This document shows positions 3,121-63,966 of a stretch of DNA of 64,000 bases, in pieces. The position numbers and the translations under genes are program-made. The notes beneath the pieces are model-generated. The model ran no database searches, was not told the DNA's origin, and worked only from the letters and a program-made list of their open reading frames with translations. Origin of the DNA: Rhyzopertha dominica (taxonomy: Eukaryota; Arthropoda; Insecta; Coleoptera; Bostrichidae). The stretch is taken from the NCBI GenBank assembly GCA_025024175.1, contig QCXZ01000001.1:28700942-28764941 (forward strand), in the 5' to 3' direction. Numbering within the stretch: the first letter of the stretch is position 1; every line of letters starts with the position of its first letter.

Positions 3121-3419
3121 CAAAAGTTGCCTATGACTTTAAAACAAAAGATGATACAAAAATGGCTATGGTACAGCTCAAATCACAACAAAAAAGTAAT
3201 AAAGTAATGTCGAAACCGCAACGCTCTAGCATTAATAGTTACTGAGATACCCGAGATACCCTACAATTACAACGAAAATGAGACACCCCGTACTTTGGGC
3301 ACTTTTGTCGCTTTCTAAATTTCAAATGACTGCCAGCAATTTCCCTCTTGATGGTCAAATGGGATATGGAAAATCTTCGACTTTATTTTCTCGTTGAAAT
3401 TCTTTTTCTATTTTTTTTT

Positions 3420-3491
3420 GGCAGCTAGGTGCCTTTGTCATCATGTCAGTGTAATGCTGACAGATGGCTTGGCATTTAAATTTCTATTTAC
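3420..3491 (-). repeat. Fragment of the hammerhead-bearing dispersed repeat (module A)
   Basis: This stretch is the reverse complement of the module seen at 5345-5430. It shares the 'ggcagctaggtg' start, the 'tgtcatcatgtcagtgtaatg' core and the 'ctgacagatgg' hairpin region. It is a short isolated piece without the ribozyme module. Confidence 0.7.
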
Positions 3492-4800
3492 TTTCTTTTC
3501 TATTTTCTTGCAGATTCAATCAAATTCTGAAACCTTGGATAATTCAAAAATCAAGGGCCCGCCCTTCTTCGGAAGATTTACACAAAGCAACCCTTCCTAC
3601 CATTCCTTAATGATGCGATAAATTATTGCCTTAGAAATATTATGATTTCTATAAATAGTGACAATGTCAGTTTGGGCATTTAGCTAACATTTGTCAAATA
3701 TTGTAAACACAAATATAGATATTATCTCGGATATTATCAAACAGAAGGCAAAACTTAACAGATTCTCTATATCTAATGGTACAGGAGAAAAGTAATACTG
3801 AAGATTTTCACAAAACTTTTAATACATACGTAAATGAGAGTTTTGTTTCAGTTTGAAACCGTGTTGCTTTTTTGGGAAAAAGTTCCTTGTATCAACAACC
3901 GATTAAAATCAGAAGTTACCGAAATTGATAAAGAAAAAGCGGTAAGGCCGCTATTCTGTTTTGCAATCTAAGTACATCACAATACAGACGTCGAACGCTA
4001 ATAAAAAAGCTTATATACATAGCAATCCGGCACAAAACTGATAAAGATCGCAAACGTCACAGACGGGAAGGGAACCGTTCATAATACCCACTGCGCACGA
4101 TGTGAATTGAAAGTGACACATTTCGCGCGACGACCAAACCTAAACCACAGTTAATTTCTGCGGCATTAAAAATTCATCCATATCCATGCCAGTTGCTGTA
4201 TAATACCAGAATAATTGCATGTGCCGTTTAGTGATGCAGCAAACTTGCTGGCGGAAGCCAACACGTGGCGATTAGATTTGTTTGAGTTTTATGCAGTCTA
4301 TTCGACAGGGGTGGGCGATTTAGGATTAACTTGGTCAGTGCCAGCTCGCGCAAAGGGTTGTAAAATTGAGAAGGTATCTGGAACGTAATATTGCAGAATA
4401 AGTTATAATGCCAATTGAAAAAATATGCAATGATAATATCCATTAAAACAGATACAAAATTGCACAACAGACGAGAAATGTCTTTTAAGTCGTAGCGTTC
4501 GAATTTCTTTAATAAGCTATCATGGCTTAGTTGTAACTTGACATTGGTAATTTTATACTATTATGAAATACATATGGTAAGATTTTTCGATTGCCCAAGG
4601 ATCAAGGAAGTAAAGCTTAGTATGACTGTTTTTTTAAATCTAAGAGTTATGACAATTTTTAAGTTTTATTTTGATTTTAATCTAATTAGCCATGAAAAAT
4701 GAAACATTTTGGTCTTAAATTTTGTAACCATTAACTAATGAGTGGTCCGATTAGTGCTTTATGATTTTAAAATTTAATAAAGCACATTTTTTTCAATATG
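3492..4800. other. Unannotated sequence
   Basis: No gene or repeat could be recognised. The short open frames resemble no known family. Confidence 0.45.
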
Positions 4801-5330: not shown

Positions 5331-5342
5331 ATTGTCTACATT
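5331..5342. repeat. Left target-site duplication of the 5343-5801 insertion
   Basis: The 12-mer attgtctacatt is repeated exactly at 5802-5813, on the other side of the insertion. Confidence 0.9.
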
Positions 5343-5801
5343 GAAAGTAAGAATTTAGGATGGCAATGCCATCTGTCAGTATTACACTGACATGATGACA
5401 AAGCCACCTAGCTGCCTTAACGGGAACTACTTCCTAAATGAAGTGACCTGTAGCCTGACAAATTGGCATGCAACTGCATACTTCAATTTGACAGCAGGCC
5501 CCCACGGCACTTTTTGCTGACGGGCAAGAACCAACATACATTAAAATGCATGTCTATGCTGTGCTGTCTACACCTCAACCAACTGCAGATAGTACTATTT
5601 CGCTGTCATTACAGCTCATCAGTGCAGTTTAGGTCTAATGTAGACAACACGGCATAGAACTGGTTTTGCTTATATACCAAAGCAATGGTATGATGAAAGT
5701 AAGAATTTAGGATGGCAATGCCATCTGTCAGTATTACACTGACATGATGACAAAGCCACCTAGCTGCCTTAACGGGAACTACTTCCTAAATGAAGTGACC
5801 T
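5343..5801 (-). mobile_element. Retrozyme-like insertion: 1.3 tandem units of a 352-bp hammerhead repeat
   Basis: The insertion lies between perfect 12-bp direct repeats. Its first about 107 bp (5343-5449) recur nearly unchanged at 5695-5801, so it is a tandem array of one full 352-bp unit and a partial second. There is no coding capacity. The unit carries several small perfect hairpins, such as the self-complementary 'atggcaatgccat' and the tgtcag/ctgaca pair. A complete hammerhead ribozyme lies on the minus strand at 5581-5629, so the RNA unit is read as the minus strand. Tandem non-coding units of a few hundred bp with a type I hammerhead match the published layout of metazoan retrozymes. 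The 12-bp TSD indicates endonuclease-primed integration. Assignment to retrozymes is inference from architecture. Confidence 0.75.
5581..5629 (-). ncRNA. Hammerhead ribozyme, complete
   Basis: Read on the minus strand, stem I AACTGCA/TGCAGTT pairs over 7 bp. The core is CTGATGA, then stem II GCTGT-AATG-ACAGC (5 bp), then GAAA. The sequence tagtacta closes a short stem III, and ATC is the cleavage triplet, directly before the 3' strand of stem I. All residues of the CUGANGA...GAAA...NUH consensus are present. Compared with the copy at 50704-50752, stem II changes from GCTAT/ATAGC to GCTGT/ACAGC, a compensatory A-U to G-C change. Predicted cleavage is after the base at 5588 (minus strand). Activity is not shown by sequence alone. 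Confidence 0.88.
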
Positions 5802-5813
5802 ATTGTCTACATT
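5802..5813. repeat. Right target-site duplication of the 5343-5801 insertion
   Basis: This is an exact copy of the 12-mer at 5331-5342. Confidence 0.9.
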
Positions 5814-8730: not shown

Positions 8731-11589
8731 CTAATGTACGTCATTCAGTAATTTGTTTTTCAATTTGTATTTAAACCGGCTTATATTCAATGTTTTTAAT
8801 TCACACGGAAGTTCATTATAGACCCTCGCTATATTGTATGAAAAGCATCTTTGGAAAAATGTATGAGAATGTATTGGAATCGTCAGCTGATCCTTTCTAC
8901 GTATATTTATACTATGTACATCTGTTCTATAAGTTATTTTGTTAATTAGGTATGGAGGTGTCTTGCTTAGCAGTATTTTATGAAATAGACATGCAGAGTG
9001 CAAGTATCTTCTCTGATGCATATTCAACCACGGAATAGTTTTGAGTTTGTGTGAGACGTGTTCCCTCCTACCAACCCCATAAATAAGACGCAAACAAGAG
9101 TTTTGGATTACCTGAATCCGCCGAACCAAGTGACTATCAAGACACGGCCCATAAAGGGAGTCGGCATAATTTAAATTTGCAAGCACTAGTATTTCACACA
9201 ATAGTATCTTGGTTTTATAATTTATTATTTTTCGAACGCTATGAATAATTTTAAGGTTTATAACTGATTTCTGAATTTGCTTCACAATGTACTCCTCAAA
9301 CCGCAGACCGGAATCAATAACGACACCAAGACTTCTAGCACTCTCCACAATTTCTATTTTTTGACCATCCAACGTAATACCCAGTCTGTTTCTAATATGC
9401 TCTCTAACAGAGACACCAGCACAACCACCAAACAGTATGGCTTTTGTCTTTTCTGGATTCAAAATTAGATTATGTCGCCTGGCAAAGTTGCAGAATTCCA
9501 TCAGGTCCGCATTAATACGAGAAGTAGCATCATCAAGGTCGCAAGGCTTAAACGAATAATAAAATTGTGTGTCATCAGCATAGAGGTGATATTTAGAGTT
9601 CCTAATACTGGAAACAAAAACAGATGTATATATAATAAAGAGTATAGGACCTAGTACGGATCCTTGGGGAACACCGAACGAAAGTCTGCCAGGCTGCGAA
9701 CAACGATCTCCACATCTGACTATCTGATGTCTGTCTGCCAAGTACTGCCTAAAAAGTTCCACAGCACTCGGGCCCAATCCAATATATTTTAAAATTAGTA
9801 ATAGTAAATCGTGCGATATAGTATCGAATGCCTTAGAAAAGTCGAGCAATACAAGAGCCACATACATACCTCGGTCCATATCTTTTATAACATCATCCAA
9901 AATGTGGAGAAGCGCCGTAACACAACCGTGACCAGCCCTAAAACCGGATTGATATTCAGGTAATATGTTATATTTGTCTAAGTGAATCCAAAGTTGCCTC
10001 GCAATAATTTTCTCAAATACTTTAGACAGAATCGGTAACAAGCTGATTGGCCTTATGTCATTAAAATTCTTAGGTTTAGACTTTTTAGGTAAGGGCATCA
10101 CGACAGACAGCCTCCACGATTTAGGGAGCACACTGCGGCCTATACAGGTATTTATAATATGGGTAATAAGCGGCAGAGTTACTTGAATACTATAGTTAAT
10201 TAAATTAAGAGAAATACCATCATGCCCCACTGCCTTCGATTTTATTGAATTTATAGCTGCAAGCACTTCATCTTCGGACACAAATGTAAATTCAAGTTTA
10301 TTGTTAGTTAGACATTTATTATTATAAAAATTAACAATCTCAGGATCACAAATAAAATTTCTATTAGGAACATTTAAAAAATGGTTATTTAATTCATCAG
10401 GAGATGACAGATTATCCGGCAAATCACGTTCTGTACGACCACCTGAGCGCATACCAAGCAACTTTAAGTGATGAAGAATATGCTTGCCTTTAATTTTAAC
10501 TGCATGTTCCAAATACGCTTTTTTTTCTCTGCATACCGCCGAATTAACAAGATTTCTAAGTGATTTATAATAATTCCAATGCGAAACCATTTTAGACCTT
10601 TTATAACGCAAAAGCGCTTTATCTCTTAACTTCATCATAAATCGTAAATTGTCGGTCAACCATGGTGTAGGTTTCTTACTAACCCTAGAAACTTTGTACG
10701 GTGCATGTCTGTCAAATACATTAACCAATTGTTCATTGAAAAAGGACAACTTATCGTTAACATTCCGCATGTCGTAAAACAATCCCCAATCTATAGATGC
10801 TAAATCATTTAAAAAATCATCAGTGTTAAAGTTCTTCATACATCGATACCTCATACACTTTTCCAAAACATCGTTGCATTCTGTACTAATCGTTAATTTA
10901 ATAACTGCGTGGTCTGCAATTGCATGATCAAGGTCAATATCAATATCACTAACTAAAGAACAATCAGATACAATTACATGATCCAGAGCAGTACACGAGG
11001 ATCTGCTGATTCTAGTAGGAGTACTAATTAACTGAACAGAATTAAAAGATTCAATAATATCTAAGTACACTTGCACTGTTTTTGAATTAACATTTAACAC
11101 ATCAATATTAATATCTCCCATGCAAATATAAATATCACCGATCGTTATTAAACAAGAACATAAGTCTTGAAATTCTGTACAGAAGTCACCAACACTAGAG
11201 CTAGGAGGTCTATAAATTAAACACAATACAATTGTAGTTTCGCATCCCGCATTAATAGAAACAATTAGGTACTCAAAAGTTTTTATATCTAAATTCAAGT
11301 TAACTTGTTTATACTTTACCAACTTTTTGAGGTAAAAACATACTCCACCGCCTCTGCCAAGTCTGTCCTTTCGAACCAGAACCATATCATCAAGCTGCAA
11401 TAGATCATTTGCTATATTTTGATTTAACCATGTTTCCACAACACCTATAACAGAGAAGTCCTGCCCTGCAAAGTAATCATGAAATGCTAAGAAATTGCCA
11501 AATAACGATCTACAATTAATACAAGCTAACTTCATTAATAGCAATAAATCAATCAGAATTCGGCTATCAGTACAATCAGTATTCACCAC
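8731..11589 (-). CDS. LINE ORF2: apurinic-type endonuclease plus reverse transcriptase
   Basis: The 952 residues have no internal stop. The N-terminal endonuclease (about residues 19-235) shows the family motifs 'VIGVVETWLN' (Glu52), 'YRPPSSS', 'MGDINID' (about 157-163), 'LDHVIVSD' and 'DHAVIKLT' (Asp226-His227). The reverse transcriptase (about 490-760) has 'RPISLLPILSKVFEK', 'LLDFSKAFDTISHD', 'GVPQGSVLGPILF' and the catalytic 'YADD' at 670-673. The C-terminus has the usual 'YADSLYGP' and 'INYKTKILLCE' region. It nicks target DNA and copies the element RNA in place. Translation may really begin at the Met at residue 19, just before the endonuclease. ORF1 ends 117 bp upstream. All visible catalytic residues are kept, so the protein could be functional although the element is 5'-truncated. 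Confidence 0.93.
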   Translation of the reverse strand: MVNTDCTDSRILIDLLLLMKLACINCRSLFGNFLAFHDYFAGQDFSVIGVVETWLNQNIANDLLQLDDMVLVRKDRLGRGGGVCFYLKKLVKYKQVNLNLDIKTFEYLIVSINAGCETTIVLCLIYRPPSSSVGDFCTEFQDLCSCLITIGDIYICMGDINIDVLNVNSKTVQVYLDIIESFNSVQLISTPTRISRSSCTALDHVIVSDCSLVSDIDIDLDHAIADHAVIKLTISTECNDVLEKCMRYRCMKNFNTDDFLNDLASIDWGLFYDMRNVNDKLSFFNEQLVNVFDRHAPYKVSRVSKKPTPWLTDNLRFMMKLRDKALLRYKRSKMVSHWNYYKSLRNLVNSAVCREKKAYLEHAVKIKGKHILHHLKLLGMRSGGRTERDLPDNLSSPDELNNHFLNVPNRNFICDPEIVNFYNNKCLTNNKLEFTFVSEDEVLAAINSIKSKAVGHDGISLNLINYSIQVTLPLITHIINTCIGRSVLPKSWRLSVVMPLPKKSKPKNFNDIRPISLLPILSKVFEKIIARQLWIHLDKYNILPEYQSGFRAGHGCVTALLHILDDVIKDMDRGMYVALVLLDFSKAFDTISHDLLLLILKYIGLGPSAVELFRQYLADRHQIVRCGDRCSQPGRLSFGVPQGSVLGPILFIIYTSVFVSSIRNSKYHLYADDTQFYYSFKPCDLDDATSRINADLMEFCNFARRHNLILNPEKTKAILFGGCAGVSVREHIRNRLGITLDGQKIEIVESARSLGVVIDSGLRFEEYIVKQIQKSVINLKIIHSVRKIINYKTKILLCEILVLANLNYADSLYGPCLDSHLVRRIQVIQNSCLRLIYGVGRREHVSHKLKTIPWLNMHQRRYLHSACLFHKILLSKTPPYLINKITYRTDVHSINIRRKDQLTIPIHSHTFFQRCFSYNIARVYNELPCELKTLNISRFKYKLKNKLLNDVH

Positions 11590-11706
11590 AAGAAACTAAG
11601 ACAAAAAAAAAGAATAAATTCCAAGTCCTATCACAAAGCAACAGTTCAATCCCACGATACTTCAAGTGGCTATAGATCAGGTGGGCCCACATGCTCCCAT
11701 GTATAC

Positions 11707-19146: not shown

Positions 19147-19190
19147 TGACATGTTGTTTTCCGGGCTGGTTCCCACGTCGGTTATTAGAC

Positions 19191-19230
19191 CTTGACGTTT
19201 CGACACTCATGTCGGTGTCTTCCTCAGAAG
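19191..19230 (-). ncRNA. Compact hammerhead core, left arm
   Basis: On the minus strand, CTT is followed by the core CTGAGGA, stem II GACAC-CGACATGA-GTGTC, GAAAC, GTC and AAG. CTT/AAG forms the first pairs of stem I next to the GTC cleavage triplet. Stem III is minimal (GAAAC directly before GTC), as in Penelope-type hammerheads that work as dimers. Confidence 0.75.
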
Positions 19231-19264
19231 TAGCTATGAAACTGTTTTTAGAGTTTCAGAGCTA

Positions 19265-19304
19265 CTTCTGAGGAAGACACCGACATGAGTGTCGAAACGT
19301 CAAG
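19265..19304 (+). ncRNA. Compact hammerhead core, right arm
   Basis: This is the mirror copy of the core at 19191-19230, with identical motifs. CTGAGGA is at 19268-19274 and GAAA at 19294-19297. CUGAGGA fits the CUGANGA consensus. Confidence 0.75.
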
Positions 19305-19380
19305 GTCTAATAACCGACGTGGGAACCAGCCCGGAAAACAACATGTCATCGACAACAACCACGGAAGCCTTCAAACCAAA

Positions 19381-22601: not shown

Positions 22602-22679
22602 GATCAAGAACAGATAGCTTCGCAAGGGAGGCACCTTTTCACTTGACCAACTACTAGTGTAAACAAAACTCGCTATAAA

Positions 22680-22870
22680 AATACATATCTATGCTATACT
22701 GTCTGCAGCACAACCAACTATAGATAGGTAGATCTATTTCGCTGTCATTACAGCTCATCAGTGTAGTTTAGGTCTAATGCAGACAACATGGTATAGGACT
22801 GGTTTTGCCTGTATATCAAAGGCTTGGTACGATGTTAGTAGAAAAATAGATGGCAAAGCCATCTGTTAGC
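22680..22870 (-). mobile_element. Diverged copy of the hammerhead dispersed repeat
   Basis: The stretch matches the module between 5550 and 5740: 'ctgtctgcagcacaaccaac', the ribozyme, 'gcagacaacatggtatagg', 'actggttttgcc' and 'ggtacgatgttag', then a diverged start of module A ('agatggcaaagccatct'). No target-site duplication was seen. Confidence 0.7.
22716..22768 (-). ncRNA. Hammerhead ribozyme, degenerate
   Basis: CTGATGA, stem II GCTGT-AATG-ACAGC and GAAA are intact on the minus strand. The stem III region has a 4-nt expansion (53 nt in total, not 49), and stem I has one A-C mismatch (AACTACA/TATAGTT). Confidence 0.65.
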
Positions 22871-23367
22871 AATGAACTGACTCACTAATACCTTTTCGTA
22901 GATATACTCACGCACTAGAAGTATTATTTGGTATCTTCTGTAGGAACTATCGGGAATAATAGCTCGCGTTATCCATGACTACCACAGAAATGTCGCAATG
23001 AGCTGCCTTTTATACAGGGTGTCCCGCAACTGACAAAACCAAATCATAAATTCTAGATAGGATTATAGGTCACACAATCTCAATATGTATACCTGTTTTT
23101 CCTTCCGAAGGGTTGCTTAAAAGTGCATTTCACAAAACTGATTATATTTAATATCTCACAAAATGTTGAAGAAATTATCTTGATCTTCTAAATTCTACAT
23201 TATAAACAAGATGGTGACAGAGCCGTTTTAAAACAGGTTAAAATTGAGGTGATGGACTAAAAACTATCACAACTTCTTTGAAAATGTAAGAATGTAAGCT
23301 TTCGCGGTCAGAGTCAGATTGAAATCTTAGTCTTTTTGGGTTAGACCGCGTCTGATTTAGGAATAAG

Positions 23368-29895: not shown

Positions 29896-29944
29896 AAGTA
29901 AATATTTAACGCCTCCATATACCGAAAAAAATAATATATTTAAG

Positions 29945-30320
29945 TAGAAATTTAGATGGCGATGCCATCTGTCAGCATTACACTGACATAATGACAAGGC
30001 CACCTAGCTGCCATTATGGGAACTTCTTCCTAAAGGAAGTAACCTGTAGCCTGACAAGTTGGCATGCACCTGTATACATCAACTTGACAGCAGGCCCCCA
30101 CGGCACGCGGGTAAGAACCGACATACATTAATATGCATGTCTGTATATGCTTACATCATACCAAGCCTTTGGTATATATGCAAAACCAGTTCTATGCCAT
30201 GCTGTCTGCACTAGACCTCAACTTTACTGATGAATTATAATGATAGCGAAATAGATCTACCTGCAGTTGGTTGCGGTGCAGACAGCACAGCACACACATG
30301 CATTTTAAAGAATACTTAAT
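29945..30320 (+). mobile_element. Rearranged copy of the hammerhead repeat (second half inverted)
   Basis: Positions 29945-30145 match modules A and C of the 5343 copy in the same orientation. From about 30160 the ribozyme module follows in the opposite orientation, so the hammerhead is on the plus strand here. The join shows an inversion relative to the tandem copy. The flanks share only a weak TTTAA-type match, so no confident duplication is called. Confidence 0.75.
30220..30268 (+). ncRNA. Hammerhead ribozyme, inactive-looking copy
   Basis: CTGATGA and GAAA are kept in the 49-nt frame. Stem II has a lost pair (ATTAT against ATAGC). Stem I is mispaired (AACTTTA against TGCAGTT), and the cleavage triplet is ACC instead of ATC. 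Cleavage is not expected. Confidence 0.65.
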
Positions 30321-31889: not shown

Positions 31890-32275
31890 TCAAAGCTTCT
31901 AGATGCAAGCTTCGTTCAGCATCGCAAAGCATAAGTAAGTCTATATTTCACTGTAAACGTATTTATTATGTTTACAAATCACCAATCACCACACTCTAAC
32001 CTCAACATCAATCAAAATGATCCGACAACCGGAAAAAGCAGTTACTTTTGTCACAGCGAAAACCGGAACTGAACCGAAAAAAATTCGCTTATATTCTGTT
32101 TGCGCAGGTTCCAAAACCAAGGTTCCAACACGTGTTACTTCAAATTGCGTAGGTTGCGGCTTAGCTAGCCCCTGTCCTCTTCATCACTTTAGTTTGAGAT
32201 TTTGGCGGGGTATGTTGCACTATTATTGATATTATTATTTTTTAAATATATCATCTGCCCTGGTCAATCCGCCCT
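31890..32275. other. Unannotated sequence
   Basis: No gene was recognised. The 70-codon frame at 32017-32229 is unassigned. Confidence 0.35.
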
Positions 32276-32283
32276 GACCATAC

Positions 32284-32313
32284 GACTAATTTCGCCATAT
32301 TGGAGCTCATCAG
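32284..32313 (-). ncRNA. Possible degenerate hammerhead core
   Basis: On the minus strand, CTGATGA is followed by GCTCCAATATGGC, GAAA and TTAGTC. The core spacing is right and a GTC triplet is present, but stem II shows only two Watson-Crick pairs plus a wobble, and stem I (CTAC against GTATGG) is imperfect. Confidence 0.35.
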
Positions 32314-32319
32314 GTAGGG

Positions 32320-35300
32320 GTACATAGTAAATTGAGCAAAGCAGGCAGTCGCTTTTAACCACGGCATGCGGACTGGTGTATAAGAGAGGGGGCAGCTCTC
32401 TAATACATACACCATTATTTTTGTTGAAATGAAACGGAACCAAACCTATGTNTATTTANATTTATTTGAACCGGAACGAAATCCGGANAAAAAAGTATAA
32501 GGGTTCGAAGCCCTGCTTAAANTTCACGATATGTCGATATGCCATAGATAATTTNAAAACTGAATATTCGCATTCGCATTTGTGAATATCGGTGGCAGAT
32601 ATTCACATTCGTGAATGTTTAAAAACTGATGTTCGTTACATCACTAGTACCTACTATTAATACCCCTTATTATTCCCACGTGCTTACTCAGTGAATTCGG
32701 TGGCCTAAAATTATAAGAATTTTCGAATTTTATGTGAGTGGCTTCGCGTCTAACCAAAAACATTGTACAAAAGTGGCATTATGAAATTCCTATAACGATG
32801 GCAAAAGAAAAACTTAGAGAGAAACTAGATGGATAAATATATGTAATGTAAAAATCATACACCTACTTATTGCAGTGGAATAAAAGAATTACATCCAAAT
32901 TCTATCTGAATCCTCGTCTTATGTCTACTTGCTATGAAAAGTATATTTCTATATTTTTTTTTGTTTTCAGATTCACCATGTCCTGCAGCTGAAGGATAAG
33001 TTGAAATAGCAGATTAATTTTGTAAAATAATAACTTTGATTTTAACTAGTTTACCTGCCGAGTAAGATAATCCTGTGAAATACTTACTTATATTAATAAA
33101 CATAACACGGAATAAAACGCGAGCTGAGTGTGGTTTGATTAAATCTAAACGATACATAAAAAGTTCCTACCACAATAATTTAGAAAATCTAAAAGCATAT
33201 TTTGACAGCTAAGTATTGCTGCTTTATTTTGTGTTTTAGTCAAGCTTTATCTTTTAGTTAACGTCAAAATATAGGTGCAAGCGATGGAATACCGTAGCTG
33301 TTTCCAGTAAAATTCTTAGTTATTCACCATCCCCTTTTTCATGGAATATACCTATACATCTTCGCACCTGTGCTTTCTCGACGTTCCTACCACACACTCT
33401 TATGTAATAAAATGTCCTCATAAATCATTCAGTCCATAGGTGCAAGTGTTCCTACTCCCACAAAATATTTGATGAAAGCGTGCCCAGATATATAAGCCGA
33501 TAGATAATGCTAATAAATCAATCATGCCTTCGAGAGTCCGCCTCCCCAGACGGATGCGAAAATGTTTACAATGTCAAAAGCCCTGGAGAACTCCTCCAGG
33601 CGAATGTTGCCTCTGAGTATTTGACCGTGAACCACTTCACATTGAAATAACGGCTTTAATGGCGGTTTACATACGAAATGTTGTCCCCAGATGTTAAACG
33701 CTTTGTTCTCTTTGCGCCGGCTGACAGAAAGACGGCTGACGTAATAATGAATACGAGTTTTAGCATAAAGCACGCTGTCGGGGTTGAAACTGAAAAAAAT
33801 GGCAACTTTTTATTAACAGAATTCTTATTTCGTGATTCACGAATTATATTTCTGCATGTCACTTGCTTGTGAATGTAGATAATTAAAGTAGCCTTCTTTT
33901 TTAGATATACATATTAATTTACTATAATATTCTTTTTAATTGCACTAATAGTCTATTTTATTTCTTTTGGTAATCTAGCCAATTCAAGTATCGTACACGG
34001 AACAATTTTATGGTTTTGGATAAAATATTTTGCATAATCTATAGAGTTACCGATATACATAATGGTTACTGCATAAGCTTTGTAATGTTATAAGACCTTT
34101 TACTGCACGTTGGCAATTAACATAAATTAAAGCGTAGCTAATAAACAATGTTTACAGAAACGTATAAAACCTAGGTATCTATTTAGAATTAACGTAATAT
34201 ACTGATAATAATTTAGTGTTCATGTGCATGCGTAGACAGACGCGAACAGGCATTTGTCATCGGGCTTGACCCATTGGACAAATTGCTTAAGTTTTTTTTA
34301 TATATATGAGCTATACTTGAAGAATACAGCTATAGAAACAAATTACCGTTTCAAGTTAAATTGAAATTGAAAATTGCATTTAATCACGTCCCCTAAAAAC
34401 GACATGTGATGTCACGTTTCATTTTAGATTGTCGCGCGTTTGTCATGTCATGTGTACCGTCTGATGCATCATACGTACGCCGTTTTCGTGGAGTTGTTTC
34501 TTTGTGAGGGTTAGTAGTTTAATATGATTGCCGAACATTCTTCTGAAAGCGGAAAATACAAAAAAAATAGTGTGTAGTTAGAGATGTGTAATAATATGTG
34601 GTTTTGCATTCCAAACCAAATTCATTTCGGTGTGCCCAAAATGGAAAATATCTAGAAAAAATGGTGCACAGCAATCAAACGAGAGGGAAAACTATAGGTA
34701 CACACAATAATCTGCGGCAAAATAAGTCGCTAACATAGTTTCTAGCTGATATTGGTTCATTTTCGCTCGACTCGCCCTCTTCTTTCTTTTTTTTTCAGTA
34801 AAACAAAGGAATGAAGATCTCCATGTTTACGTTTAGATGTCATTTTAATCAAAATTTTACAAAAGCAAACAAAAGCACACCGCGTTCGCAATTAATAAAC
34901 AACTGTTAACAGTTGAGAGTTGACACGACACGACAGCATGAGCATGAGGACGCGCTACAGAGGAGAGAAAGCGCGCGCGCTGTATATCTGTGGCGCGAGG
35001 TTTAAAAACTTGACGCCTTCTTATAGAAATATAAAGTTGAAAAATACTATATCATGTATAACCAACTGCAGTTGTCACCGTAATTGCTGCACTCGCACAA
35101 TTTTGAAACAGTTGCTTTGTATTTTCTCTGAAACAGTTTTTTAATTATATTAGGTGTTCATTTATAAAAGTCATCAAGTTGCTTATGATGTCTTGACCGA
35201 CAAAGACGGAGCAAAAAAAGGACGCTTCAAATTAATACAACCTGTCAAGTGTTAATTCAATGTCATTTGTCGAAAATCGATACAATTCACGTCTTATATT

Positions 35301-36994: not shown

Positions 36995-37882
36995 TGTTAA
37001 ATGTCAATTTTTGTATCTGCGTTATTATTAAAATAAAAGGTGTTTTTGTACGTTTATTAATTTCTGGCTATGTTTAGAATCGCTGTTAATAAGATAAAAA
37101 CTAAAATCGAAGCGAATGCGTATGTGTGCGATTAATTGTTTTGGCGAGAAAATATCAGAGTCGCGAGGAGATGCAAAAGTAGGCAATGAGTATTGATGTG
37201 TCATTTTTGACAGAGAGAGAAATGTTCTTGATTTTGGCTCTGAGAGAGCGAGGTCTTTGGCCATGATGTGCCTCAGGCAGTGAGAGCGAGGTCTTTGGCC
37301 ATGATGTGCCTCAGGCAGTGAGAGTAAGGTCTTTGGCCATGATGTGCCTCAGGCAGTTTGAAACCCCTAGCGCAGAGTGCCCGGTTAACAGCCGTGGTTC
37401 CTTCGAGTGGAGGACTTGCATTCCGGGGGTAATGCAGGATATCTCGAATGACATAGTTCTGGTGGAGAGGGTAGCCTTATTAGGTGCCCCCGATCCGGGC
37501 TATTGGAATGCGACCCTATAGGCCTTAGGGTGAGCGTTCGGGGAAGCCTCTACTATTTCAGGTTGACACTAGCTAGTTGTTGAAGAGAGAAAACTAACAA
37601 GGTATTCATAACCACCATTGACTAATGATGTAATCTCAGGGATGAAGCCATGGACAGTATAAGGATGATGCCCTGGGGTGAAAACCCCTCTGTGAGTCTT
37701 AACTGTATCTTTTTGAGTTTAACGGATGAGTAACTTATGTTTTGTTTTTGCATCTCCCGCGCGTATGTGAAACCGCCTTGTCTGTCCACCGGAGTGACCG
37801 CATTGTTATGACCCACGGATGAAGGCGGCGATAATGTAAGTTTTTCTTGATTATTCCCGCATTAGTATTTCTATGTTTTTCA
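36995..37882 (+). repeat. 5' LTR
   Basis: The LTR is 888 bp with TG...CA ends. It contains three 38-bp tandem units and short open frames only. About 99.7% identical to the right LTR by eye. Confidence 0.9.
37244..37357 (+). repeat. 38-bp tandem repeat, three units, in the 5' LTR
   Basis: Each unit starts gagagcgagg or gagagtaagg and ends ctcaggcagt. The same array is at 42369-42482 in the other LTR. Confidence 0.9.
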
Positions 37883-42119: not shown

Positions 42120-43008
42120 TGTTAAATGTCAATTTTTGTATCTGCGTTATTATTAAAATAAAAGGTGTTTTTGTACGTTTATTAATTTCTGGCTATGTTT
42201 AGAATCGCTGTTAATAAGATAAAAACTAAAATCGAAGCGAATGCGTATGTGTGCGATTAATTGTTTTGGCGAGAAAATATCAGAGTCGCGAGGAGATGCA
42301 AAAGTAGGCAATGAGTATTGATGTGTCATTTTTGACAGAGAGAGAAATGTTCTTGATTTTGGCTCTGAGAGAGCGAGGTCTTTGGCCATGATGTGCCTCA
42401 GGCAGTGAGAGCGAGGTCTTTGGCCATGATGTGCCTCAGGCAGTGAGAGTAAGGTCTTTGGCCATGATGTGCCTCAGGCAGTTTGAAACCCCTAGCGCAG
42501 AGTGCCCGGTTAACAGCCGTGGTTCCTTCGAGTGGAGGACTTGCATTCCGGGGGGTAATGCAGGATATCTCGAATGACATAGTTCTGGTGGAGAGGGTAG
42601 CCTTATTAGGTGCCCCCGATCCGGGCTATTGGAATGCGACCCTATAGGCCTTAGGGAGAGCGTTCGGGGAAGCCTCTACTATTTCAGGTTGACACTAGCT
42701 AGTTGTTGAAGAGAGAAAACTAACAAGGTATTCATAACCACCATTGACTAATGATGTAATCTCAGGGATGAAGCCATGGACAGTATAAGGATGATGCCCT
42801 GGGGTGAAAACCCCTCTGTGAGTCTTAACTGTATCTTTTTGAGTTTAACGGATGAGTAACTTATGTTTTGTTTTTGCATCTCCCCCGCGTATGTGAAACC
42901 GCCTTGTCTGTCCACCGGAGTGACCGCATTGTTATGACCCACGGATGAAGGCGGCGATAATGTAAGTTTTTCTTGATTATTCCCGCATTAGTATTTCTAT
43001 GTTTTTCA
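42120..43008 (+). repeat. 3' LTR
   Basis: The LTR is 889 bp, starts TGTTAAATG and ends TTTTTCA, and includes the same 38-bp triple array (42369-42482). Confidence 0.9.
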
Positions 43009-49377: not shown

Positions 49378-49390
49378 TTAAATTAGCAGT
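49378..49390. repeat. Left TSD of the composite hammerhead repeat
   Basis: The 13-mer ttaaattagcagt is repeated exactly at 50789-50801. Confidence 0.88.
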
Positions 49391-49429
49391 ATGTAAGAAT
49401 TTAGATGGCAATGCCATCTGTCAGCATTA

Positions 49430-50096
49430 AGGCCGATTCCCACTTACGCAGCATGGTGCGGCACGGCACGGCGCGTTACGATGCAGTAAAATGCTGCTTA
49501 CAATTGTTTGCATGTATTTAAATGATACCGTTCCCATCTAATCAGCACGGTCCGCTGCAACACGGCGCGGTACGCTGCAGCAAAATTTCAATTCACCGGT
49601 GTACGTTTCCATGCGTCAATTGACGCACGCTGCTGCTTGTGCCGAACAGAAGTGGGATGCTCAACCGAAACTTTGTGTGATGTCCCGTTAGTGGAACGTG
49701 TACAATATTGTACAATTCAATGAGTTTTTTGGAAGACATTCTATGATGTTTATAAAATTTGCGTTCGTGCTCCTGGAATTTTCTAAAAAGTGTGTGAAAT
49801 TCACCCTATTCCATTCTTGCATGAAATATATCGTGAACCCAATAGTTTCGCCTTTTTCTTCTTTTCTTTTATTTTCTTCGTGTTCATTACATACAATAGC
49901 TGATCAATAAATTGTCCGATGACGATGATGTAGATGTTATATTTATCTAATTAATAATATATATAATGATGATAAAGTTTTATTAAACTTCTGGTTCTGC
50001 CGGACACTGCCGCACAAGTGGGAATAGCTACCATCGTGCAGTGTCGCGCCGCGCTGCAAGGCATCGTGTCGTGCTGCATTAGTGGGAATCTAACTA
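49430..50096. mobile_element. MITE inserted in the hammerhead repeat
   Basis: Other copies of the host repeat read cagcattacactgac without interruption. Here the sequence is split after 'cagcatta' and resumes at 'tacactgac', which gives a TA duplication (49428-49429 and 50097-50098). The ends AGGCCGATTCCCAC and GTGGGAATCTAACTA share GATTCCCACT as inverted repeats. Subterminal CpG-rich blocks ('cagcacggtccgctgcaaca' and similar) occur at both ends in opposite orientation. The body has no transposase. Confidence 0.82.
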
Positions 50097-50113
50097 TACA
50101 CTGACATGATGAC

Positions 50114-50255
50114 TGTGATGTTGTGGCAGGGTAACACAAAAACACTTACTTATACCCGTGTATTAAGAAATAACTGAATAATTGAATATACAGGTAAGTA
50201 TACAACTCAAACGGCTCGCAATATTTTACACATGCTTTTTGAACAAAACATTACA
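50114..50255. mobile_element. Solo LTR, 142 bp
   Basis: Sequence starting TGTGATGTTGTGG and ending ACATTACA interrupts the repeat. It is flanked by the 5-bp duplication atgac (50109-50113 and 50256-50260). In intact copies the host reads catgatgacaaagcc. The TG...CA ends with near-inverted TGTGATG/CATTACA and a 5-bp duplication identify a solo LTR of a short-LTR retrotransposon. The orientation and family are unknown. Confidence 0.8.
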
Positions 50256-50441
50256 ATGACAAAGCCACCTAGCTGCCTTAACGGGTACTACTTCCTAAAG
50301 GAAGTGACCTGTAGCCTTACAAATTGGCATGCACCTGCATACTTCAATTTGACAGCAGGCCCCCACAGCACTTTTTGCAAGCGGGCAAAAACCGACATAC
50401 TTTAAAATGTATGCCTATGCTTTGCTGTCTGCACTCCAACC

Positions 50442-50490
50442 AACTACAGATAGATCTATTTCGCTCTTATTATAGCTCATCAGTGCAGTT
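50442..50490 (-). ncRNA. Hammerhead ribozyme, one stem II mismatch
   Basis: On the minus strand, stem I AACTGCA/TGTAGTT pairs with one G-U wobble. CTGATGA, GAAA and ATC are intact. Stem II GCTAT/AGAGC has one mismatch. It spans 49 nt, like the intact copies. Confidence 0.72.
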
Positions 50491-50703
50491 TCAAATTGAA
50501 GTATGCAGGTCCATGCCAATTTGTCAGACTACAGGTCACTTTCTTTAGGAAGTTGTACCCGTTAAGGCAGCTAGGTGCTTTTGTCATCATGTCAGTGTAA
50601 TGCTGACAGATGGTATTGTCATCTAAATTCTTACTTACATCATACCTTTGCTTTGGTATATAGGCAAAATCAGTTCTATGCCGTGCTGTCTGCACTAGAC
50701 CTA

Positions 50704-50752
50704 AACTGCACTGATGAGCTATAATAATAGCGAAATAGATCTATCTGCAGTT
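50704..50752 (+). ncRNA. Hammerhead ribozyme, complete
   Basis: Stem I AACTGCA (50704-50710) pairs with TGCAGTT (50746-50752). CTGATGA is at 50711-50717. Stem II GCTAT-AATA-ATAGC is at 50718-50731. GAAA is at 50732-50735. The sequence tagatcta forms a short stem III, and ATC (50743-50745) is the cleavage triplet. Every consensus base is present and all three stems can form. Predicted cleavage is between 50745 and 50746. Confidence 0.88.
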
Positions 50753-50788
50753 GGTTGCAATACAGACAGCACAGTATAGACATGCATT

Positions 50789-50801
50789 TTAAATTAGCAG
50801 T
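50789..50801. repeat. Right TSD of the composite hammerhead repeat
   Basis: Exact copy of the 13-mer at 49378-49390. Confidence 0.88.
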
Positions 50802-59231: not shown

Positions 59232-61856
59232 TTAACGATCCTCAACCTCGACTACCGGCTTCAGGTCCTGCACGTGCCACGTACCATTCAATGGCTTCCC
59301 ATCCTCATCTTCCAGCTCGTATGTCCAGGAGCCCACTTTGCGACGCACTACGTAAGGTCCAATAAATGCAGGACACAAACCAGCCTTGATCCCTTTAGCT
59401 GCATCCGACAAAACTCTGTTCTTCCGCCAAACGAGGTCTCCAATGTTGTAGTTTACGGGCCGCCGTCGCAAATTGTATACCTTTCGGTTGCGTTCTTGAG
59501 CTGCTACAAGTCGTTGGTTGATCTGCCGAAACATTTTTTGATACTCAAGAGCTCGCTTTTCAAAGTCATTGGCCGGTCTCGGTGGTGCTCCATCGCGGCG
59601 TTCTTTTAAAAGGTACCGGTATTCTCGCCCATCTCCAATGTATTCACGACCGAAGTTTACATAATAGGGGCAGAATCCAGTGACCTCACTCTTGCAAGTT
59701 CTGAGCGCACAGCCAACGGCTGAAAGGTTTTCATCCCAACTCTTGTGGTCCTTCTTGATATAACAAGAAATCATGGTTTTAATAATACGGTTGTATCTCT
59801 CCGCCGGGTCTGCCCGTGGAAGGTAGTTAGCAGTATAACAGATCTTGACTCCGTGCTGATTGCAGAGGTTTTGGAAGTCTTTGCTCCTCATTTGCTGACC
59901 GTTGTCACATATTAGAAATTCGGGAACTCCGAAGTGAGAAAAGAGATGGTTGTTAACATAACTGACTAAATATCGCGCTTTAGCGGAACGCAACGGAAAT
60001 AACAAAACGTACTTAGAGAAATAATCGCAAATTACCAACAAGTACGAAAAACCAGATTTACTTCGGGGAAAAGGTCCCATAAAATCTAGACTAACCATCT
60101 GCCAAGGACGCTGTATTTCAGGGCGGGAGCCCATTAACCCAGCCGGACGCTTTTGTTCGGGCTTATGTTGAGCGCAGGTAGTACAATTTCGAACATAACG
60201 CGCGACATCCGCTCTCATGCTTGGCCACGTAAACAGTCTACGCAGTCTCCAAAAGGTTTTATAAACTCCTAGATGTCCTGATTTTGGTTGATCGTGATTT
60301 TCTTCTAGAATAATTTTCCTTTTGTCTTTAGGAACCACAAGCTTCCAATAATTTTCTTCAGCGGAAAGTTCAGGTATGTCACATCGGACATATTTGTATA
60401 CTAAACCGTTGTTAACACGCCATGGACGATACTTTTCAGGGTTATTCTCCACTTTAGTGAGCATGTTTAAATACCAGCGGTCAGTAGTTTGAGGAAACGT
60501 ATCTACAACATGCGGAATCTCTATCGCTCCTACCTTTTCAGGTACGGATCTGGACAAGAAATCCGGTACGACATGTTCGCGTCCCTTTCGATGAACTATA
60601 GTGTAGTCGTATGGCTGTAAGCGTAACGCCCACCGAGCAAGTCTGCCTGTAGGGTCTTTTATGTTGTGTAGCCACAACAAGGAGGAATGATCGGTAATGA
60701 CGGTAAAATGGCTACCTTCCAAGAAATGACGCAGTTTTTCTATAGCCCAAATAACGGCTAAACACTCTCGCTCCGTGGTAGTGTAATTCATTTCGGTTCG
60801 AGAAAGAGACCGAGAGAGGAAACAAATCACTCGTTCACCATCAGGATAGATTTGCGTCAAAACAGCTCCAATCCCATACGCCGACGCGTCAGTCTGAAGC
60901 AGGAATGGCTTTTCGAAATCCGGACAGGTGAGTACAGGGGCAGACACTAAACAATTCTTAATTGCAGAAAATGATTCTTGACATTTATCGGTCCAAAGAA
61001 AATGAACATTTTTCCGGGTAAGTTCCGTAAGCGGCTTTAACATGGTCGCGAAATTTGGAATAAAGCGCCTATACCAACTAGCCATACCTACAAATCGCCG
61101 TACCTCTTTCGCATTCCGTGGGGGCGGGACGTTCAGCATAGCCTCAACCTTTGAAACATCCACATGCAAGCCCTCAGAATCCACCACGTACCCCAAATAT
61201 TTCAAAGATGGTCGACAAAAATGACATTTTTCTCTGTTAACAGTAAGACCTGCCTTAATTAACCGCTCTAAAACTTCTGCTAATACTTTTAAGTGAGTAT
61301 GAAAATCTGGAGATATTACAATAATATCGTCGAGGTAAACGAATACGTACGGCTCAAGATCTGCGCCGATGACTCTATCGATTAATCGTTGCCATGTGGC
61401 TGGAGCATTAGTCAAGCCGAAAGGGATTCGCCGAAACTGAAAGAGACCTCGACCAGGAATAGTAAACGCTGTAAGTTCTTTGCTTTCTTCTTTTATAGCT
61501 ATCTGATGGTAAGCGGATTTAATGTCGAGAGAACTTAGAAAACGCGCACCCTTTAAACGATCAAGAATGGAAGAAATGTATGGGAGAGGATAGGCATCCT
61601 TTTTGGTGACAGCGTTCAGAGTTCTATAATCAACACAGAATCGATGCTTCGTACCACCATCCTTTGGTACAAGAAGTGCTGGTGATGACCACGGACTTTT
61701 CGAAGGTTCCACGATGCCTTCTTTTAACATTTTGTTTAATTCCTCGTCCAATAAGCGTTGCTTCGAAGGTGAAACTGGATAATATCTCTGCTTGATCGGT
61801 TTTGCATCAGACTGTAGAGTAATTTCATGTAACAAATCGCCGTACCTCTTTCGCAT
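59232..61856 (-). pseudogene. gypsy pol, 3' part: RT, RNase H, integrase
   Basis: The open frame has 874 codons. RT shows 'SSLDIKSAYHQI', 'PFGLTNAPATWQRL' and YLDD (about residues 174-177). RNase H has 'LLQTDASAYGIGAVL' (Asp about 322) and 'TDHSSLLWL' (Asp about 389). Integrase has the zinc-binding His521, His528, Cys558 and Cys561, and core residues Asp591, Asp651 ('CDNGQQMRS') and Glu686 ('PAERYNR'). A GPY/F-type module 'PAFIGPYVVRRKVGSWTYEL' lies near the C-terminus. The Met at 61856 is not a natural start: it lies just inside the duplication, in a different frame from the true pol. Without the duplication this would be the continuation of the pro-RT frame at 61825-63231. Confidence 0.88.
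61090..61829. repeat. Tandem duplication, first copy (740 bp)
   Basis: Matches 61832-62571 with no difference found by eye. It covers most of the reverse transcriptase core. The two copies are separated by 'ta' (61830-61831), giving a 742-bp period that is not a multiple of three and shifts the frame. Confidence 0.93.
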
Positions 61857-63231
61857 TCCGTGGGGGCGGGACGTTCAGCATAGCCTCAACCTTTGAAACA
61901 TCCACATGCAAGCCCTCAGAATCCACCACGTACCCCAAATATTTCAAAGATGGTCGACAAAAATGACATTTTTCTCTGTTAACAGTAAGACCTGCCTTAA
62001 TTAACCGCTCTAAAACTTCTGCTAATACTTTTAAGTGAGTATGAAAATCTGGAGATATTACAATAATATCGTCGAGGTAAACGAATACGTACGGCTCAAG
62101 ATCTGCGCCGATGACTCTATCGATTAATCGTTGCCATGTGGCTGGAGCATTAGTCAAGCCGAAAGGGATTCGCCGAAACTGAAAGAGACCTCGACCAGGA
62201 ATAGTAAACGCTGTAAGTTCTTTGCTTTCTTCTTTTATAGCTATCTGATGGTAAGCGGATTTAATGTCGAGAGAACTTAGAAAACGCGCACCCTTTAAAC
62301 GATCAAGAATGGAAGAAATGTATGGGAGAGGATAGGCATCCTTTTTGGTGACAGCGTTCAGAGTTCTATAATCAACACAGAATCGATGCTTCGTACCACC
62401 ATCCTTTGGTACAAGAAGTGCTGGTGATGACCACGGACTTTTCGAAGGTTCCACGATGCCTTCTTTTAACATTTTGTTTAATTCCTCGTCCAATAAGCGT
62501 TGCTTCGAAGGTGAAACTGGATAATATCTCTGCTTGATCGGTTTTGCATCAGACTGTAGAGTAATTTCATGCTCAATCAGTGTCGTGTAGCCTAATCCAT
62601 CCTTCATACGCGCAAATTTTTCAGTTAACATATCCTCGAGAAGCCTTTGCTGATTTAATGTTAAAGTAGAGCCAGTTTGGATGCCGCTTGAAACAGGAAT
62701 ACATTCCGAACCAAAGTGCCATATGTCACGCTTCAGATCCGGAATTACATCCATTGCCATACAGAAATCTGAGCCCAGAATCAAACTGGATGATAAACGA
62801 GACACAGCTAATACTTCCAGCACCGTAACTCTTCCTTCTAAGCAGATTGGGGTGGCGATGGTACCCATAGACGTGCACTTATCTCCATTTGCAACCTGAA
62901 ATTCTACTCGATTATTGGTTTTAAGCGTCAACCCAAGTTTCAACAATTTATCAACAACTGAACCACTAACCAACGTGACACTACTACCGGAATCTAACAG
63001 TCCCAAGAACGGGGGTCCAAGAATTGATACTTCTAGGTGAGGTCGACAGTCACCATCTGCATGCGCTAGTATGAAATCAACCAGAGCCTGTCTGCGATAA
63101 AAATGGGGGACTAAGGAGTACACTGAGGAATGAGCTACGTTCAAAGAATTGGCCATTTTGCAAGCGAAATGCGGAGTCATCAGCTGGCCATTTAATGACT
63201 CGCACGAGCGTTTCCCGAACAAGACTGGCAA
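61825..63231 (-). pseudogene. gypsy pol, 5' part: protease and RT, cut by the duplication
   Basis: The open frame has 468 codons. A retropepsin-type protease is at about residues 50-165 with 'LGLLDSGSSVTLVSG' (catalytic Asp80-Ser-Gly). RT begins near residue 195 and includes YLDD at about 385-388. The frame ends 'RRFVT' and a stop at the duplication junction, so RNase H and integrase are lost from it. It overlaps the gag zinc-knuckle frame by 40 bp in another frame, the arrangement used for ribosomal frameshifting in gypsy elements, although a slippery site was not identified. Confidence 0.87.
61832..62571. repeat. Tandem duplication, second copy (740 bp)
   Basis: Matches 61090-61829; see that entry. 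Confidence 0.93.
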
Positions 63232-63566
63232 TTCTGAAGAGTAACGCCCTCAGCACCACAACGAAAGCAAGCAATTTTATCTCGAAGCGGACACTGTCTA
63301 CGAAGATGCCCACGCTGTTTGCATTTCCAGCAAACCGGTCCACCTGGTACATCCTGAAAAATAACATCAGCTGGGGACAACGGAACAACTGCAGAAACGC
63401 CTCGTACTCGGGATTTATCCGCACGTCGATAAGCAAGCTCCGGTTCCTGAGCCAAACGAGGATTTTGAGATGGTGGGCAATACTGCTTGGCACGCCAATG
63501 AGAATCTTCAATACGCCGTCCTAAATCGACAAGTTCCTCTATCGTATCCACTTCATGGAGCGCCAT
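63192..63566 (-). pseudogene. gypsy gag, C-terminal part with zinc knuckles
   Basis: The frame continues upstream of the Met ('IIRRNLLPHLHTAMALHEVD'). It has 'YRRADKSR' and a knuckle 'CWKCKQRGHLRRQC' (CX2CX4HX4C), followed by 'CFRCGAEGVTLQNCQSC', a second cysteine cluster without the usual His. It is joined to the capsid frame at 63608-63826 by a one-base frame change near 63645. Confidence 0.8.
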
Positions 63567-63607
63567 GGCGGTGTGAAGATGAGGTAATAAGTTTCTTCTA
63601 ATTATAC

Positions 63608-63966
63608 CTACTTGTTCTTTTTCAGGAAGTTTTGTGAAAGCTTATTGAATAAACTTTGCATTCTTGTTACGTACAATAATAATCCTTCCTCATGACTTGG
63701 GTTCTTTTTCGTAATGTCGTCCATCAAACTTAACTCATAATCTGGCGGAAGAAAATTATCTTTTAACTGAGATACTAATGAGTCCCAGCTCGAGAACTTG
63801 TGTCGCCTAGTTCTAAACCATAGCAAAACATCTCCCTTAAATAATTCGGACGCAGACTGAAAAGTTTCTGCTTGCTAACTCCTCTGGAACGCGCCATTTC
63901 CTCTACCTCCTCGATGAAATTAATAACGCTAGAATTTCCGTCAAAGCAAATTTTCCACCTACTCAA
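63608..63966 (-). pseudogene. gypsy gag, capsid region, frameshifted
   Basis: Two overlapping frames hold one capsid. The first (63966 to about 63850) reads 'SRWKICFDGNSSVINFIEEV' and 'RSRGVSKQKLF'. The second (63826-63608) reads 'FSSWDSLVSQLKDNFLPPDY' and 'YVTRMQSLFNKLSQ'. Both are typical of Ty3/gypsy gag (W...L...L...F.P.DYE...EE...YV.RM..LF..L). A frame change near 63850 separates them. The N-terminus is beyond the window or close to its edge. Confidence 0.75.

Follow-up and report, generated by a model that had tools for sequence, protein, structure and literature searches.

The 64,000-nucleotide stretch of Rhyzopertha dominica DNA analyzed here in its entirety (hereafter, the window) contains a 459-bp non-coding insertion, denoted copy A, that is flanked on both sides by the same 12-bp string (12/12 bases) and encompasses one complete 352-bp unit and the 107-bp start of a second (Table 1). 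At a spacing of 352, the overlapping portions are identical at 107/107 bases in both the repeat search and the alignment; the GC content of the unit is 0.429 (43%), and the longest stop-to-stop frame is 67 codons. The initial annotation, which described an insertion of this length and unit structure between exact 12-bp repeats, with no coding capacity, was accurate in these respects. Its description of the element as a tandem repeat holds for copy A, where the tandem is partial, but not for the other copies in the window, each of which is either a single copy or an inverted arrangement; no array of the 352-bp unit was reported by Tandem Repeats Finder in the 64-kb window. Throughout, unit positions are numbered in the sense of the RNA, that is, of the minus strand, as u = 5802 - window position.

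Table 1. Copies of the putative retrozyme in the window, with their hammerhead motifs and target-site duplications (TSDs)
Feature	Position	Strand	Basis
TSD of copy A, left, ATTGTCTACATT	5331..5342	.	repeat search, flanking-string search
Copy A, putative retrozyme insertion, one 352-bp unit + 107 bp	5343..5801	-	sequence, repeat search, self-comparison of window
TSD of copy A, right, ATTGTCTACATT	5802..5813	.	repeat search, flanking-string search
Putative type I hammerhead of copy A, core bases intact	5581..5628	-	Rfam, descriptor
Putative hammerhead with extended stem I (arms 5639-5658 and 5553-5572)	5553..5658	-	fold, copy comparison
Copy B, head-to-head fold-back between 13-bp TSDs TTAAATTAGCAGT (49378-49390, 50789-50801)	49378..50801	.	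self-comparison, flanking-string search
Copy B, left arm, main part, u172-352-55	50256..50491	-	alignment
Copy B, left arm, further pieces (u51-67; u66-103)	50097-50113; 49393-49429		alignment
Copy B, right arm, u311-352-261, intact hammerhead motif 50705-50752(+)	50491..50792	+	Rfam, descriptor, alignment
Copy C, left arm, u247 round to u107 clear (29941), to u130 (29917) weaker	29917..30142	-	alignment
Copy C, right arm, u103-261, decayed hammerhead motif	30150..30308	+	alignment
Copy D, 5'-truncated single copy, u59-262	22675..22881	-	alignment
Copy E, 5'-truncated single copy, u34-107	3420..3495	+	alignment
TSD of copy E, 11 bp, low-complexity, TTTTCTATTTT	3404-3414, 3496-3506		flanking-string search

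The initial annotation placed a hammerhead ribozyme with all consensus bases and three stems on the minus strand of copy A, and the generic type I descriptor that we built for the present analysis (consensus CTGANGA, GAAA, stems I-III and a UH triplet) indeed fits there. The descriptor has two matches in the window, both within this repeat family (copy A and the right arm of copy B), and one match in 100 dinucleotide-shuffled windows. The best Rfam model is HH9, with 28.8 bits for copy A (E-value 0.0042 for the window against the whole library) and 33.5 bits for copy B (E-value 0.00014), both below the gathering score. At the curated cut-off of Rfam, the refuting condition named in the initial annotation, no hammerhead hit above threshold, formally applies, as no match reaches the gathering score of 52. 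A true motif, intact in two copies of the window (A and the right arm of B), is nevertheless favored by the E-value, by the descriptor matches and by the paired changes that the copies show (see below). Cleavage in copy A is predicted between u214 (5588) and u215 (5587), the core beginning at u180, and stem III has 3 bp and a palindromic tetraloop, GUAC. The sequences AUAGUACUAU (copy A) and AUAGAUCUAU (copy B) are each self-complementary throughout, which would permit paired (dimeric) hammerheads such as those reported from newts and axolotl (PMC7229834). The lowest-energy fold lacks the hammerhead core, whose bases pair differently, in a 71-nt piece, a 101-nt piece and the circle alike; for the 101-nt piece, forming the hammerhead costs 3.7 kcal/mol relative to the lowest-energy form (-36.1 vs -39.8). 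Elsewhere in the window, a weak HH9 match at 32261-32327 (18.8 bits, E-value 7.1) was considered as a further family member and rejected, having no similarity to the retrozyme copies; it is probably due to chance. The unit also contains TATATAAG at u126-133 (5669-5676), followed about 35 nt downstream by an initiator-like CTACATT; together, these could be an internal promoter, and the TATATA of this region is kept in copies B and C, not in D.

A blastn comparison of copy A with the 64-kb window recovers five insertions in all, A to E (B at 49393-50792 and C at 29917-30308), with copies B-E being 83-93% identical to A over the aligned columns. Two of the five (B and C) are head-to-head fold-backs. 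TSDs, all longer than 4 bp, flank three of the five insertions (A, 12 bp; B, 13 bp; E, 11 bp), and the search for shared flanking strings detected none for C and D; among 2000 random pairs of segments, an equally long shared string occurred in 2 (A), 0 (B) and 1 (E). These duplications are 75-91% AT, compared with 63% for the window. The first four bases of the right duplication of B, TTAA, also match the element's own end (4/13 bases), and five extra T separate the duplication of E from the element. A resemblance of the duplication of A to u154-165 (11/12 bases, equaled by 0.6% of random 12-mers) was rejected as post hoc because the duplications of B and E show none, their best matches being equaled by 59% and 64% of random strings. 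Only one of the two fold-backs, B, has a TSD. It is interrupted by two later insertions (at about 49430-50096 and 50114-50255) and its outer duplication is nevertheless still perfect, so that the whole fold-back most likely entered in a single event. With regard to a possible origin of its arms from one RNA, they differ from each other at 16/187 columns, a divergence close to that of A from each of them (23/236 and 30/302), yet both carry bases at u25, u195 and u228 that are absent from the other copies covering those positions. Given that C has no detectable TSD, we do not extend the single-event claim to it.

Several other repeats are found in the same window. The longer insertion inside copy B (49430-50096) has inverted termini that share GATTCCCACT at both ends. 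At 19147-19348 lies a 202-bp near-perfect palindrome, 96% self-complementary, that matches the Rfam model MIR6201 on either strand with 64.3 bits, slightly short of its gathering score of 69, and is probably a fold-back transposon. Segments of about 889 bp at 36995-37882 and 42120-43008, 5 kb apart and 99.7% identical, each contain three 38-bp tandem repeats. Gypsy-type frames on the minus strand at 59232-63641 include a 740-bp exact tandem duplication within the reverse transcriptase region (61090-61829 and 61832-62571), which is either a recent duplication or an assembly artefact. Among the 240 matches listed for the LINE and gypsy proteins, nine name an organism, eight of them beetles (Callosobruchus, 4; Photinus, 2; Hypothenemus, 1; Brassicogethes, 1) and one a moth (Heliothis, 1); identity among the matches listed is at most 42% for the LINE and at most 57% for gypsy. 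These names make the arthropod host inferred in the initial annotation plausible and point to an insect, perhaps a beetle.

In the sense of the RNA, the 3' ends of the copies determined by blastn fall mostly at two places in the unit, one comprising A (u108, one base being common with the TSD), E (u107) and the left arm of B (u103, readable as u103-109 owing to a short repeat), and the other comprising the right arms of B and C (both u261) and D (u262). The 3' end of the left arm of C is ambiguous in both alignments, which reach u130, more weakly past u107. Local alignment confirmed the ends of B and D, carried the right arm of C to u266 and extended A and E into poorly matched flank, E being carried past u107 with gaps in one such alignment. 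The two main end points, u107 and u261, are located 245 and 47 nt past the cleavage site and about 154 nt apart, and no 3' end among insertions A-E is at the cleavage site, u214. Simulation gives a probability of about 1e-5 that six 3' ends (the left arm of C excluded) fall by chance in two 7-nt arcs of the 352-nt circle, and 0.0004 that five fall within 6-nt arcs, these being arcs set after the ends were seen and values that come from few copies in one window. The 5' ends vary: they lie at u1, u34 and u59 and, in the fold-backs, at the inner end of each arm, the inner junctions joining u172 with u311 in B and u247 with u103 in C. Fixed 3' ends combined with variable 5' ends are as expected from reverse transcription at defined start points. 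In the predicted circle, u107 is within an unpaired linker of 16 nt, and u261 is next to a hairpin's tip loop. The plus-strand primer of A would end in ATT, and that of E would not. The arms of C jointly span the circle once, overlapping by about 15 nt (u247-261) and by 5 nt at u103 (28 nt if the left arm extends to u130); such single-circle coverage is found in one of the two fold-backs, the arms of B sharing 187 columns instead.

Folded as a circle, the sense unit has an energy of -135.2 kcal/mol, compared with a mean of -92.0 (sd 5.2) for shuffled sequences, none of 200 being as low (z -8.25), and with -113.6 kcal/mol for the antisense circle. When the 126 pairs of this fold, which is that of copy A itself, were followed through the other copies, which share ancestry and changes, 286 pair cells were kept, 22 changed on one side, 9 changed on both sides (6 distinct pairs) and 27 were broken. 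Moving the substitutions of each copy at random to positions with the identical base, in 500 trials, gave an expectation of 49.0 (sd 4.7) broken cells and 2.4 compensatory ones, and no trial reached either observed value; with the partners slid by 1-3 positions, the fold yielded 0-3 compensatory and 36-52 broken cells. The two-sided changes include pairs of stem I and a G-C pair of the stem II helix, which the right arms of both fold-backs, B and C, replace by A-U and which is broken in the left arm of B. Substitutions among the copies thus spare the pairs of the sense-strand fold. In this low energy and in the paired substitutions, the family has the compact, self-paired RNA in the hammerhead sense that characterizes retrozymes.

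Metazoan non-LTR retrozymes are described as having units of 170-400 nt, type I hammerheads and TSDs longer than 4 bp, and are known in crustaceans and insects (PMC7229834), with an example from a tick (PMC4918200). The element in the window has in common with them the unit size, GC content below 50%, a type I hammerhead motif with short stem III, the lack of an ORF, the partial tandem, TSDs longer than 4 bp and the compact circular fold (Cervera and de la Pena 2020, PMC7229834), the assignment to this class being by features, with the sequence unmatched to a known family here. The initial annotation had proposed a retrozyme and, with a probability of about 0.88, we likewise regard copy A as a recently inserted member of a family of metazoan non-LTR retrozymes with an inferred RNA cycle. 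Plant LTR retrozymes also combine a hammerhead, the lack of an ORF and a circular RNA model, but have type III hammerheads, LTRs, PBS, PPT and 4-bp TSDs (PMC4918200); membership among them was rejected on the type I hammerhead and the TSDs of 11-13 bp found here. The W-elements of Schistosoma mansoni are comparable by description, being satellite-like repeats treated in a paper that names the hammerhead ribozyme 16 times; TSDs and inverted repeats inside the elements are mentioned for them, the latter tied to miRNA and snoRNA parts (PMC8490949). Exact-pattern searches with the hammerhead in viral contigs, and with u34-69 in bacterial and archaeal genomes and viral contigs, gave no match (0), which is what an element of animals would be expected to give.

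The retrozyme identification concerns an already known class, and what is new is the anatomy of the insertions, that is, the internal ends and the fold-backs, which the initial annotation of copy A did not mention, nor did it mention the other insertions. Head-to-head fold-backs and fixed internal 3' ends are not mentioned in the main text of PMC7229834, and we found no mention of retrozyme fold-backs or internal ends in the main-text portions covered of PMC7229834, PMC7761336, PMC4918200 and PMC11722881, a set that covers little of the subscription literature. In these texts, the word 'inverted' is absent from the main text of PMC7229834 and occurs once in PMC7761336, in a reference, and once in the available part of PMC4918200; 'head-to-head' is absent from the latter two.

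The hammerhead motif, the tandem overlap, the TSDs, the clustered internal 3' ends, the fold-backs and the conserved RNA pairing are all observed in the sequence, and we suggest the following cycle. The minus strand would be transcribed through one or more retrozyme units, and the hammerheads would cleave this RNA at u214/215, perhaps acting in pairs, given the short stem III with its palindromic loop. Ligation of the monomer would yield a circular RNA of about 352 nt. A reverse transcriptase from another element would then nick an AT-rich target, with the cDNA beginning internally near u107 or u261; synthesis continuing round the circle (or along a multimer) would produce more than one unit, as in A, whereas an early stop would leave 5'-truncated copies such as D and E, and the head-to-head fold-backs (B and probably C) would result when both strands at a single target break serve as primers.

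Mobilization of retrozymes by Penelope-like elements (PLEs) has been proposed from shared hammerheads, tandem copies and co-occurrence, PLEs being considered a strong candidate on indirect grounds and LINEs the other (Cervera and de la Pena, PMC7229834). For Poseidon, a PLE of the green anole, the purified protein was found to cleave the two strands of the target and to extend each of them, with a preference for the motif 5'-ATT-3' in AT-rich DNA; it uses two internal RNA start sites downstream of the hammerhead, mutations of which are without effect on insertion (PMC11167929). In common with Poseidon, the element in the window has apparent internal starts at two RNA sites, apparent priming on both strands, AT-rich targets and a hammerhead motif, the start sites being separated by about 154 nt here and by a tail of 30-40 bp in the anole (PMC11167929). 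With the Penelope of Adineta vaga, which forms partial tandems and inverted repeats that are mostly head-to-head, with TSDs of 8-10 bp and some copies without a TSD, it shares the head-to-head inverted repeats, TSDs and partial tandem (PMC3846280). The five window insertions present this pattern of putative internal starts, head-to-head arrangement and TSDs, with two fold-backs, one of them within a TSD. Unlike PLEs, the element has no ORF, TSDs of 11-13 bp and a hammerhead motif with a stem III loop and a long stem I. That it is itself an autonomous PLE was rejected, given the lack of an ORF for a reverse transcriptase and a GIY-YIG endonuclease; it can only depend on one. Neither domain was detected in the 21 frames scanned, out of 47 frames of at least 85 codons outside the LINE and gypsy elements in the window; two of the 21 gave matches below the cut-off (DUF1408 and AIRC), taken as chance. 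We put the chances that the mobilizing enzyme is that of a PLE at about even, and the marks of insertion support, without proving, the published proposal of PLE-mobilized retrozymes. A more specific scheme, in which the PLE enzyme starts at the two fixed internal sites and primes both strands of one break on a single circular RNA, is advanced only tentatively; copy C might be a trace of such dual priming because its arms cover the circle once, each stopping about 5-28 nt from the start of the other.

The main rival to mobilization by a PLE, possible but with clearly less than an even chance, is that a LINE mobilizes the retrozyme via target-primed reverse transcription, the fold-backs being products of twin priming, which has been described for L1. 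TSDs of 11-13 bp suit LINEs too, the 5'-truncated copies D and E fit, and a LINE with a reverse transcriptase and a weak endonuclease match is present at 8731-11595 in the window, but it has no detectable sequence in common with the retrozyme, which is weak evidence, no A-tail or simple-repeat tail is seen at the retrozyme 3' ends, and instead of a single 3' end the copies point to two fixed starts inside the unit. For comparison, the 15-bp TSDs of Nematostella hammerhead repeats have been likened to those of LINEs (PMC4918200).

Internal priming itself has alternatives. Under one, which appears unlikely, the fixed ends are the true 3' ends of linear transcripts, where reverse transcription would begin without internal starts on a circle. 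The position of u261, after TTTTAA and near a T run, is suggestive in that a T run stops RNA polymerase III; u107, however, follows only TTTC, copy A runs through u261, and each unit would have to contain two stops. Similarly doubtful is the origin of the fold-backs from self-priming of cDNA or antisense RNA, or from later recombination, instead of priming from both strands: self-priming is favored for the Adineta Penelope, where head-to-head repeats have palindromes at their junctions (PMC3846280), but the junctions here join distant points of the unit (u172/u311 in B, u247/u103 in C) rather than a short palindrome, and copy B is inside one TSD. Least credible of all is that the element is a satellite or another ordinary repeat of DNA, immobile at the RNA level, in which drift created something resembling a hammerhead; this would suit the partial tandem arrangement but not the TSDs, the dispersed copies, the conserved RNA pairing and the motif intact in two copies.

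The marks in question, namely, 3' ends at fixed internal points and head-to-head copies that lie within a single TSD, are countable in any retrozyme genome, so that the proposal of mobilization by a PLE can be tested by sequence and then in vitro. The anatomy of these insertions bears on the identity of the enzyme that copies the RNA of animal retrozymes back into DNA.
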